Shown here piece by piece: positions 5,278-7,692 of a stretch of DNA of 64,000 bases. Each line of letters starts with the position of its first letter. Positions within the stretch are counted from its first letter, which is position 1. The position numbers and the translations under genes were made by a program. The DNA comes from a virus: IMG/VR virus record IMGVR_UViG_3300036770_000417, positions 1 to 64,000 of that record. The stretch is one strand, 5' to 3'. The notes below the pieces were generated by a model that ran no database searches, was not told the DNA's origin, and saw only the letters and a list, made by a program, of their open reading frames with translations.

Positions 5278-7692
5278 ATGGATATCGTCAACAATAAGGC
5301 GCTGCTGTTGAAGCTGCGCCACCCAAGCCGCGTCACTACGGTCATCGAAAAGAGCCAAGAGGTGCGACCGCACGAAGTGCTGGTGCGCTGGGGTGTCGAC
5401 GAGGTGCACAAGCTGCGCGACCTCAACATCTCCGCACCGTCACCGATAGAGGGCAGGTACAACTGGCCCGGACGATGGGCGCCAATGTCGCACCAGCGTA
5501 CCACAGCATCGTTTCTTACCAAGCACCGCAAGGCGTTCTGCTTCTCGGAGCAGGGTACCGGCAAGACTGCCTCGGCCATCTGGGCTGCGGACTTCCTGAT
5601 GACGCAGGGCAAGGTGCGTCGGGCACTCGTGGTCTGCCCCATCTCGATCATGGACAGTGCATGGCGCAACGACCTGTTCAACTTTGCGATGCACCGGACG
5701 GTGGACGTGGCCTACGGCGGTGCGGAGAAACGCAAGAAGATCATCGCAAACGGTGCGGAGTTCGTCATCATCAACTACGACGGCATCGAGGTGGTGCAGA
5801 ACGAGATTGCCAACGGGGGCTTCGACCTCATCATCGTAGACGAGTGCTTTGTAGCGGGCACGCCCGTACACACACCAGACGGCCTGACGCTAATTGAAAA
5901 CCTGCGGGTCGGTGACGCGGTCTTTACAAGTAACGGAGTACACAATATAAGTACTGTGTCTAAGCGGAAACCAAGCGCGCTTGTGGAGGTTACACTTGAC
6001 ACTGGAGAGCTCATCACCTGCACTCCGGAGCATCCTTTCTTCACTGACTGGGGTTGGGTGCCCGCCAAAGCTCTTGCAGGTAGACGGATCGTGTCTGCAT
6101 CTAGCCTGCCCAATATGCGGGGCGGCGTATACGCTCCGCACGGCGAAGTGGCAGTTTCACCGAAAAGCGGGAACCCACACTGGGATGACTTGCTCGCGAT
6201 CCTGCGGTCGGAAGAGGTGGCACCAACTACATCCGGGGGAGTCAGCACTCAAGCGATTGACCGCAGAGCAACGGGCGTTGGGCGTTCGGTCGGGGTTTCA
6301 CCGGACAGCGGAGCAGCGAGCACACCTGTCGAAAGTAGCGAAGGAGAGAGGGCTCCGCCCGGTAGTTCGCGGCGGGAACGGAACTGGAATGACCGGGCCA
6401 GAGAAGCAGCTTTTGCCGACGCTCCCGACGGGGTGGGTATGGAACTTCCCAGTAGCGTTGGGTCGCAGGCAGCGCGGCTTTCCTACGCACTTCAAGCTAG
6501 ACTTCGCGTGGCCAGAAAAGAAAATCGGGTTGGAGGTGGATGGAAACAGCCACCGGACGACAAAGGGTCAGGCGCGGGACAAGCGGAAAACGGAGACGCT
6601 TTCGGTGCTCGGGTGGATAGTGTTACGTATCGGAAACCGAGAAGTGACGAATACGTCTACAACCTCGAAGTTGCTGGAACGCCTAACTACTTTGTTGGGG
6701 AACAACGAGCGCTAGCGCACAACTGCACACACTACAAGACGGCAACGACCAAGCGCTGGAAGGTGCTGAACTCTCTGGTGAAGCCGGAGACTTGGGTGTG
6801 GCTGATGACGGGCACACCCGCTGCACAGTCACCGCTGGACGCCTATGGTCTGGCTAAGCTGGTCAACCCCAACAACGTGCCGCGGTTCTTTGGCTCGTTC
6901 CGGGATCAGATTATGACGAAGCTGACGCAGTTTCAGTGGGTGCCGAAGGCAAACGCATCGGAGGTCGTGTTCAACGCACTGCAACCTGCCATACGGTTCA
7001 CGAAGGCCGAGTGCTTGGACCTCCCTGAGATGGTGTACGTCAAACGGGAGATCGCCCTGACCAAGCAGCAAGTGAAATACTACAACCTGCTGAAGCAGCG
7101 TATGGTCATGGAGGCCGCAGGCGAAGAAGTCACCGCGGTCAACGCCGCCGTGAACATGAACAAGCTTCTGCAGATCAGTGCGGGGGCTGTCTACGCCGAC
7201 AGCGGCGAGGCGCTGGAGTTCGACATCCAGCCTCGCTACCAAGTGCTGCAGGAGGTCATCGCCGAGACCAAGAACAAGGTGCTCGTGTTCGTGCCGTTCA
7301 AGCACACCATCGACCTGCTCACGACTAAGCTGCGCGCTGATGGGGTGAGTACCGAGGTCATCCGAGGCGATGTGCCTGCCAGCAAGCGCACCGAAATATT
7401 CAAGGCGTTCCAAGAGCAGCCTAACCCCCGCGTGCTGGTGATTCAGCCGCAGTCAGCCGCGCATGGTGTGACACTGACCGCAGCCGACACGGTAGTGTGG
7501 TGGGGGCCCACGCCGTCACTGGAGACCTACGCACAAGCCAACGCGCGCGTGCACCGCACGGGGCAGAAGAACAAGTGCACTGTCGTACAGCTGTACGGCT
7601 CGCCTGTAGAAAAGCGTGTCTATGCGATGCTCGATAACAGGATTGACGTCCACACAAGAATGATCGAGTTATACAAAGATATGCTTGACTAG
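5278..7692 (+). CDS. SNF2-family helicase with in-frame intein
   Basis: An 804-residue open frame. The extein is a SNF2/DEAD-like DNA helicase: Walker A SEQGTGKT (91-98), a DE box at 188-189, and motif VI QANARVHRTGQ near 752. Right after the DE box an intein begins at Cys190 (CFVAGTPVHTPDG) and ends AHN-482, followed by Cys483. Block B is CTPEHPFFT and block F is VYNLEVAGTPNYFVG. Splicing would restore VDE-CTHYK. The middle of the intein (about residues 265-440) is low-complexity and Ser/Gly/Arg-rich, and it is the shadow of a homing endonuclease coded in the +1 frame. ATG 5278 has a good ribosome site. The helicase probably works with the phage polymerase and nucleases. Confidence 0.9.
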   Translation: MDIVNNKALLLKLRHPSRVTTVIEKSQEVRPHEVLVRWGVDEVHKLRDLNISAPSPIEGRYNWPGRWAPMSHQRTTASFLTKHRKAFCFSEQGTGKTASAIWAADFLMTQGKVRRALVVCPISIMDSAWRNDLFNFAMHRTVDVAYGGAEKRKKIIANGAEFVIINYDGIEVVQNEIANGGFDLIIVDECFVAGTPVHTPDGLTLIENLRVGDAVFTSNGVHNISTVSKRKPSALVEVTLDTGELITCTPEHPFFTDWGWVPAKALAGRRIVSASSLPNMRGGVYAPHGEVAVSPKSGNPHWDDLLAILRSEEVAPTTSGGVSTQAIDRRATGVGRSVGVSPDSGAASTPVESSEGERAPPGSSRRERNWNDRAREAAFADAPDGVGMELPSSVGSQAARLSYALQARLRVARKENRVGGGWKQPPDDKGSGAGQAENGDAFGARVDSVTYRKPRSDEYVYNLEVAGTPNYFVGEQRALAHNCTHYKTATTKRWKVLNSLVKPETWVWLMTGTPAAQSPLDAYGLAKLVNPNNVPRFFGSFRDQIMTKLTQFQWVPKANASEVVFNALQPAIRFTKAECLDLPEMVYVKREIALTKQQVKYYNLLKQRMVMEAAGEEVTAVNAAVNMNKLLQISAGAVYADSGEALEFDIQPRYQVLQEVIAETKNKVLVFVPFKHTIDLLTTKLRADGVSTEVIRGDVPASKRTEIFKAFQEQPNPRVLVIQPQSAAHGVTLTAADTVVWWGPTPSLETYAQANARVHRTGQKNKCTVVQLYGSPVEKRVYAMLDNRIDVHTRMIELYKDMLD
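5845..6723 (+). mobile_element. helicase intein with overprinted homing endonuclease
   Basis: The intein (293 residues) is recognised by Cys1, blocks A, B, F and G, and the terminal Asn with a +1 Cys. It sits at the DE box of a SNF2 helicase, a highly conserved site of the kind inteins prefer. Its endonuclease is not fused in frame but coded in the +1 frame of the same DNA, from about 5996 to 6715, and that gene ends 8 nt before the intein does. Confidence 0.85.
5996..6715 (+). CDS. Vsr-like homing endonuclease, out of frame inside the helicase intein
   Basis: The +1 frame within the intein encodes a protein of about 239 residues. Order of parts: a zinc-ribbon-like CPIC ... CSRSC, basic repeats of the DNA-binding NUMOD type (RTAEQRAHLSKVAKER), then a Vsr/DUF559-type nuclease core: GPEKQLL, FKLDFAWPEKKIGLEVDG, H six residues on, DKRKTETLSVLGW and VLRIGN. 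This matches the very-short-patch-repair-like homing enzymes described from fractured phage genes. No ATG is available at the front. TTG 5996 is chosen because GTGGAGG lies 6 nt upstream; TTG 5981 and a later TTG are alternatives. The last ~25 codons overlap intein blocks F and G. Confidence 0.8.
   Translation: MTLESSSPALRSILSSLTGVGCPPKLLQVDGSCLHLACPICGAAYTLRTAKWQFHRKAGTHTGMTCSRSCGRKRWHQLHPGESALKRLTAEQRALGVRSGFHRTAEQRAHLSKVAKERGLRPVVRGGNGTGMTGPEKQLLPTLPTGWVWNFPVALGRRQRGFPTHFKLDFAWPEKKIGLEVDGNSHRTTKGQARDKRKTETLSVLGWIVLRIGNREVTNTSTTSKLLERLTTLLGNNER

Follow-up and report, generated by a model that had tools for sequence, protein, structure and literature searches.

The window analysed here, the whole stretch of 64,000 nucleotides at positions 1 to 64,000 of the IMG/VR virus record IMGVR_UViG_3300036770_000417, carries a phage helicase gene with an intein in its reading frame, and a putative homing endonuclease gene overprinted on the intein in the +1 frame. 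The features of the locus, all on the + strand, are given below in the order of their positions; the part of the intein frame that underlies the endonuclease gene between the two splicing halves is referred to as the shadow.

5278..7692 (+), SNF2/SF2-type phage helicase precursor, an uninterrupted 804-aa ORF with SNF2-rel_dom and Helicase_C domains
5278..5844 (+), N-extein, whose last residues ...LIIVDE belong to the Walker B motif (DE.H type), where intein-less relatives read DE/ATHYK
5845..6723 (+), intein of 293 aa (C1...HN), with the splicing residues C1, T60xxH63, H292 and N293 intact
5845..6123 (+), N-terminal splicing half with blocks A and B, residues 1-93; high pLDDT, intein-frame codon phase to ~nt 250
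5985..5990 (+), Shine-Dalgarno sequence GGAGGT of the endonuclease, inside the intein codons Val-Glu-Val; a GAGGT-type motif is kept in relatives
5996..6715 (+), overprinted endonuclease gene in the +1 frame, 239 aa, with a TTG start and a TAG stop at 6713-6715
5996..6055 (+), endonuclease residues 1-20, a passive N-terminal tail coded across the block B region; pLDDT < 50, intein frame dominates
6107..6205 (+), zinc-finger-like CxxC...CSxxC module, endonuclease residues 38-70; four Cys invariant in A1 and A3
6124..6597 (+), intein shadow, residues 94-251, 158 codons without stops, predicted to be disordered, endonuclease-dictated
6353..6640 (+), nuclease domain, endonuclease residues ~120-215; D169, E180, H186 and D195 invariant, D182 at at least 90%
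6598..6723 (+), C-terminal splicing half with blocks F and G, sharing bases with the endonuclease C-terminus; high pLDDT
6724..7692 (+), C-extein, starting with the +1 nucleophile Cys, which is Ala in intein-less relatives

The helicase product matches the DNA helicase family phrog_62 of PHROGs (9.2e-95), and its frame has no internal stop from 5278 to 7692, so that host gene and intein form one ORF and the gene is not split. This confirms the preliminary description, in which the helicase frame stays open through a 293-residue intein with its splicing residues in place. The intein extends from Cys1 at 5845 to Asn293 at 6721-6723 and is followed by Cys as the +1 residue. It scores 37.9 bits with the Pfam Intein_splicing model (cut-off 35.8) and lies above the cut-offs of both NCBIfam models of intein termini, TIGR01445 and TIGR01443. 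The nucleophile at position 1, TxxH in block B, the C-terminal HN and Cys at +1 identify a class 1 intein, and C1, T60, H63, H292, N293 and C+1 are invariant or nearly so across 50-57 related inteins. Searches of the helicase-intein protein against Pfam, PHROGs and NCBIfam found no endonuclease domain in the frame of the intein itself; an endonuclease hidden in frame within the shadow was rejected on the same searches.

Structures were predicted with AlphaFold, the input alignments being without isolate-phage rows. In the intein model, the splicing fold has a pLDDT of ~96 overall (residues 1-88 ~97, with 85 over residues 81-90; residues 252-293 ~95, with 94-96 from residue 261), while the shadow, residues 94-251, is mostly below 50. 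The best Foldseek match of the model in the PDB is gp41-1 (6qaz, E 2.3e-6), a split intein of fractured-gene origin, and other mini-inteins are also among the top matches. The two high-confidence halves together with the gp41-1 match point to a Hint fold. The insert in the intein, earlier described as disordered and ~170 codons long, is likewise disordered in the prediction, but its length is 158 codons.

A complete +1 gene had been proposed from about 5996 to 6715, and such a gene is present: the start codon, TTG at 5996, follows GGAGGT at a distance of five bases, the frame closes at the TAG, and the product matches DUF559 (PF04480) of Pfam with an E-value of 1.2e-8. The gene is full length, carries every invariant residue, lies at the midpoint of the intein and is out of frame within an open host frame. 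The designation of the enzyme as Vsr-like applies to its predicted fold, for which the nearest PDB entry is the Vsr-like homing endonuclease I-Bth0305I (3r3p, Foldseek E 4e-3, a modest score), but not to its sequence, which is DUF559-like and gives an E-value of 0.13 with the NCBIfam vsr model TIGR00632. The mean pLDDT of the endonuclease model is 81, with the core mostly at 81-96 and a disordered N-terminal tail overlying block B. The model and the conserved acidic and His residues agree with the fold of a DUF559/Vsr-like homing endonuclease.

A nucleotide search with the helicase gave no match in isolate phages, and protein searches were therefore used. Frame-blind profile searches were performed on viral and genome contigs and the loci were classified with intein HMMs built for this analysis. 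Both frames are open in all of the nine IMG/VR loci L001-L009, of which L001 has the same gene sequence as the window, with endonuclease identities down to 49%. Among 112 loci in which both intein halves were recognised, 111 are continuous with the endonuclease in +1 and the remaining one (L130) is split; the 10 partial loci are all +1, and no DUF559-type endonuclease in frame 0 or +2 was found among the classified loci. Some of the 111 loci are redundant, and 84 non-redundant ones entered the selection tests. The insertion point lies nearly always after the DE of a Walker B motif, in hosts that include several kinds of helicases as well as terminases. Searching by intein instead of endonuclease gave the same picture, and the endonuclease core and the splicing blocks are co-inherited (r 0.78; maximum of the Mantel null 0.20).

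Isolate phages also carry the +1 endonuclease in a continuous helicase-intein ORF, at 26-32% endonuclease identity; these include Corynebacterium phage phi673, Vibrio phages CP-T1, K391, 104E43.1, 159E43-1b and others, and Pseudomonas phage MR14. Their annotations give a helicase, P-loop, coil-containing or hypothetical protein and leave the nuclease gene unannotated. Bacterial examples come from Ktedonobacter, Anaerolineae, Elusimicrobia and Polyangiaceae contigs. The overprinted layout thus defines a stable family, whose endonucleases stay in +1 down to ~26% identity. An open shadow in relatives had been set beforehand as one of the observations on which the proposal should stand or fall, and it is seen in L001-L009 and in all but one of the 112 loci. 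Likewise, the continuous intein with a +1 endonuclease holds its place, through the same 111 loci, as a third layout beside the in-frame and the fractured ones.

Selection in the two frames was compared in 30 close relatives. Mean pairwise differences at intein codon positions 1, 2 and 3 are 0.28, 0.23 and 0.57 in the intein-only part and 0.52, 0.34 and 0.33 in the shadow, and are flat and low over blocks F and G (0.24, 0.22 and 0.29); the variable codon position thus passes from the intein third position before the overlap to the endonuclease third position, equivalent to the intein first, in the shadow. Identity at four-fold sites of the endonuclease is 82-96% over block B and 85-90% over F/G, as against 43-56% for the main part of the shadow and 32-45% for the exteins. 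Purifying selection acts on the intein frame where folding is required and, beyond keeping it open, only weakly in the middle. The per-frame comparison of relatives that had been suggested as a check therefore bears out the overprinting, through the switch of codon phase and the conserved four-fold sites at block B and F/G. The accompanying claim that both frames carry constrained sequence is correct for these two regions, but in the middle the endonuclease dominates and conservation of the shadow is mostly its projection.

In the +1 geometry, a shadow stop arises only if an endonuclease codon ending in T precedes AA, AG or GA, and as C is always a synonym for T, each potential stop is removable silently. 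In the 84 loci, T occurs at 0 of the 1,109 pyrimidine-ending codons at risk of a stop, versus 573 expected from the other codons of the same genes; in the extein control, 2,259 of 6,808 end in T. The shadow is therefore kept free of stops, as had been proposed. For the window alone, the chance of an open shadow given the endonuclease protein and the phage codon usage is P ~0.026, which makes one genome only suggestive, and the case rests on the family, across which the summed probability of stop-free shadows is ~10^-383, ignoring relatedness; chance is excluded as the cause of the open shadows across the family. Over the nuclease core (6425-6600 in the window), silent endonuclease sites are 52-73% identical, compared with 43-56% in the rest of the shadow. 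This excess is higher than stop avoidance obviously explains and is not fully accounted for.

The TTG, with a purine-rich Shine-Dalgarno sequence, lies 151 nt into the intein in every one of L001-L009, and in four of these loci (L003, L004, L005 and L009) a stop interrupts the endonuclease frame two codons 5' of the conserved TTG, so that translation of the endonuclease must begin at or after that point. Across the family, 64% of the candidate starts have a Shine-Dalgarno strength of -6 kcal/mol or better, compared with 24% in a best-of-n background. TTG is a weak start, and a clear Shine-Dalgarno sequence is missing in some family members such as L096, L100 and L115. The upstream stops and the conservation of the TTG and the Shine-Dalgarno sequence favour internal initiation over an upstream frameshift.

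Several known systems share parts of this organisation. Canonical large inteins also have the Hint fold and carry the endonuclease between blocks B and F, but in the frame of the intein, whereas here a different frame encodes it, so that it would be made as a polypeptide of its own. Dassa et al. are said to have described, in 2009, fractured phage DNA-metabolism genes with split inteins and a Vsr-like endonuclease gene at the intein midpoint; such genes resemble the present locus in their DNA-metabolism phage host and in the Vsr-like endonuclease as a midpoint gene of its own, but the host gene is broken there, and here it is one continuous ORF with the +1 endonuclease running across it. I-Bth0305I, which resides in a group I intron and whose PDB entry is titled as a mobile intron protein, provides the nearest nuclease fold at a modest score; the enzyme studied here resides in an intein and has a zinc-finger module. 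The closest published case found is that of the ShiLan elements, in which the host frame stays open with an out-of-frame HNH gene, in the absence of splicing motifs and of a detectable ribosome-binding site (PMC11855218). The ShiLan element and the Pacc40 insertion of the same report share with the window an out-of-frame endonuclease inside the open host frame of a phage gene, but their endonucleases are of the HNH type and come without splicing domains or a detectable ribosome-binding site (PMC11855218), while the window has a full intein, a DUF559/Vsr-like enzyme and a Shine-Dalgarno sequence.

By analogy with these elements, the insert could be an unspliced one that is retained in the helicase protein, since ShiLan elements, too, stay open in the host frame around an out-of-frame HNH gene (PMC11855218). 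This is extremely doubtful, because the window insert interrupts a Walker B motif and, unlike the ShiLan elements, has all the splicing residues and a Hint fold predicted at high confidence. As the window belongs to a metagenomic virus record, a sequencing or assembly indel could also give a false overprinted appearance to an intein of the usual in-frame or split kind; the same phase in isolate phages and in bacterial genomes from independent projects leaves practically no chance for such an artefact, which was rejected on these genomes and is already refuted by the family. It is highly improbable that the shadow is a functional domain in itself, on which the endonuclease arose by overprinting. 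Some shadow residues, such as Q217, do not vary, and across the nuclease core the silent positions of the endonuclease show somewhat higher conservation than is seen in the exteins, but the shadow is predicted to be disordered and follows the codon phase of the endonuclease, whose families also occur free-standing. The invariance of Q217 stems from the Y-K motif of the endonuclease, since TAC-AAR gives the intein frame a CAA codon and TAT in place of TAC would create a stop; conserved shadow residues were accordingly rejected as a sign of a domain.

Two further alternatives concern the +1 gene. Programmed +1 frameshifting, which would fuse the endonuclease to the helicase and the N-terminal half of the intein and dispense with internal initiation, suits an endonuclease that is in +1 throughout and a nested gene that needs ribosome access inside a translated ORF. 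It is judged quite improbable in view of the conserved Shine-Dalgarno-TTG unit, the Shine-Dalgarno strength above background and the stops upstream of the TTG in the four loci, with which slippage 3' of those stops is formally compatible. Decay of the +1 frame to an endonuclease that has lost its function is unlikely: homing endonucleases commonly decay and one relative (L223) has kept no more than a remnant of 61 residues in an intein that is otherwise intact, but the window gene is full-length and lacks none of the invariant residues, and the shadow follows the codon phase of the endonuclease across the 30 relatives.

The locus is very probably a mobile element in which two genes share the same DNA, a class 1 intein in the helicase frame and a free-standing homing endonuclease in +1. 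This reading is drawn from the two open frames, the conservation of layout and phase, the selection acting on each frame, the conserved Shine-Dalgarno sequence and start, the predicted folds and the empty alleles. The two Hint halves, joined by a loose linker of 158 residues, would excise the insert post-translationally and restore the Walker B motif of the helicase. The endonuclease would be made from the TTG behind its own Shine-Dalgarno sequence inside the intein, and the resulting zinc-finger and DUF559/Vsr-like enzyme would cleave helicase alleles that lack the intein within their Walker B codons; repair after cutting would then spread the insert and co-convert the neighbouring Ala codon to the Cys required for splicing. 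Control of the sequence would pass from the intein over blocks A and B to the endonuclease over the middle and to both at F/G, the intein frame in the middle being merely kept stop-free by changes silent in the endonuclease. In this scheme, splicing, cleavage, homing and translation of the +1 gene are predicted activities.

Empty alleles are represented by 79 new intein-less helicases (L265-L343), 60-73% identical to that of the window; no closely matched pair of filled and empty alleles was found. The insertion site is visible in 71 of the 79, and all 71 have Ala (DE/ATHYK, ANAYK, ANHYK or ANSYK) where the filled allele has Cys, so that homing would have to co-convert the +1 codon. A free-standing relative of the endonuclease overlaps the start of an intein-less helicase at L114:3968-6033, possibly representing a donor or a collaborative-homing state. 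Splicing and mobility by cutting are separated in function, yet encoded on the same bases, so that losing one does not necessarily disable the other. L223:248-748, a 167-aa relative of the intein that has lost most of the endonuclease, keeps both the helicase and the splicing frame intact.

The out-of-frame endonuclease within a full splicing intein is what distinguishes the locus from the ShiLan elements and the fractured genes, and no description of such an arrangement was found in the literature searched. The ShiLan report cites a 2025 preprint by its authors on a non-canonical intein architecture for overlapping reading frames in actinobacteriophages (PMC11855218), which may overlap the present findings and pre-empt their novelty. 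Overprinting also explains the absence of the nuclease from the phage annotations that were checked. The family constitutes an exceptionally deep natural data set on long same-strand gene overlap, and its loose-linker inteins may be good sources of engineered split inteins.

We tentatively suggest, as a rather doubtful generalisation, that overprinting is a general and repeatedly evolved mode of endonuclease carriage by inteins and the usual precursor of naturally split inteins. Along such a route, an endonuclease would settle out of frame in a contiguous intein, whose shadow stays open by silent changes; the shadow would then gain stops and the C-terminal half a start of its own, giving a fractured gene with a split intein. 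The precursor part draws on one fractured relative, L130:3436-5727 from an uncultured Lacinutrix MAG, in which the N- and C-terminal halves are separate ORFs that share one frame, the shadow is full of stops, the C-terminal half has its own ATG and the +1 endonuclease overlaps both ends. The earlier view of the window as an intermediate between a contiguous and a split intein gains from this relative, but not as a singular or transient state, since the overprinted loci form a stable family; moreover, the tree gives no direction. This tree of 101 endonucleases is poorly resolved because it has only 131 columns, and the order of the split, free-standing and overprinted states is not separated in it. 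With this layout, the origin of split inteins becomes open to direct test.

The repeated-evolution part is largely borne out by the other endonuclease families in the same layout, DUF559 being always in +1, HNH always in +2 and one GIY-YIG endonuclease in +1; overprinting therefore arose at least three times. The control inteins brought to light zinc-finger HNH_3 endonucleases overprinted on terminase inteins in +2 (L224, L226, L229, L230, L235, L236, L240, L344-L423, L424), and of the loci recovered by a targeted HNH search, 55 are continuous and 17 partial; all have the enzyme in +2, and most belong to terminases. Among isolates, Acinetobacter phage Highwayman (OZ038341) carries a +2 HNH gene unannotated inside its terminase gene. 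In the +2 geometry, Met before a codon starting with A makes an unavoidable shadow stop, and this combination occurs at 0 of 83 positions in the +2 enzymes, compared with 36% in the +1 enzymes and 31% in the exteins; openness of the shadow in +2 thus shapes the endonuclease protein itself. The third endonuclease superfamily is represented by L260:3001-4251, an intein in which a GIY-YIG endonuclease has a +1 frame open over 325 aa. One HNH-type locus, L403:1241-3525, was classed as split, with the N- and C-terminal parts of the intein in different ORFs, and may be a fractured gene or a frameshift. Free-standing HNH homologues were also observed beside terminases in Pseudomonas phage FBPa53, Acinetobacter phage BP10 and Salmonella phage Shemara (L425, L426 and L427, respectively).
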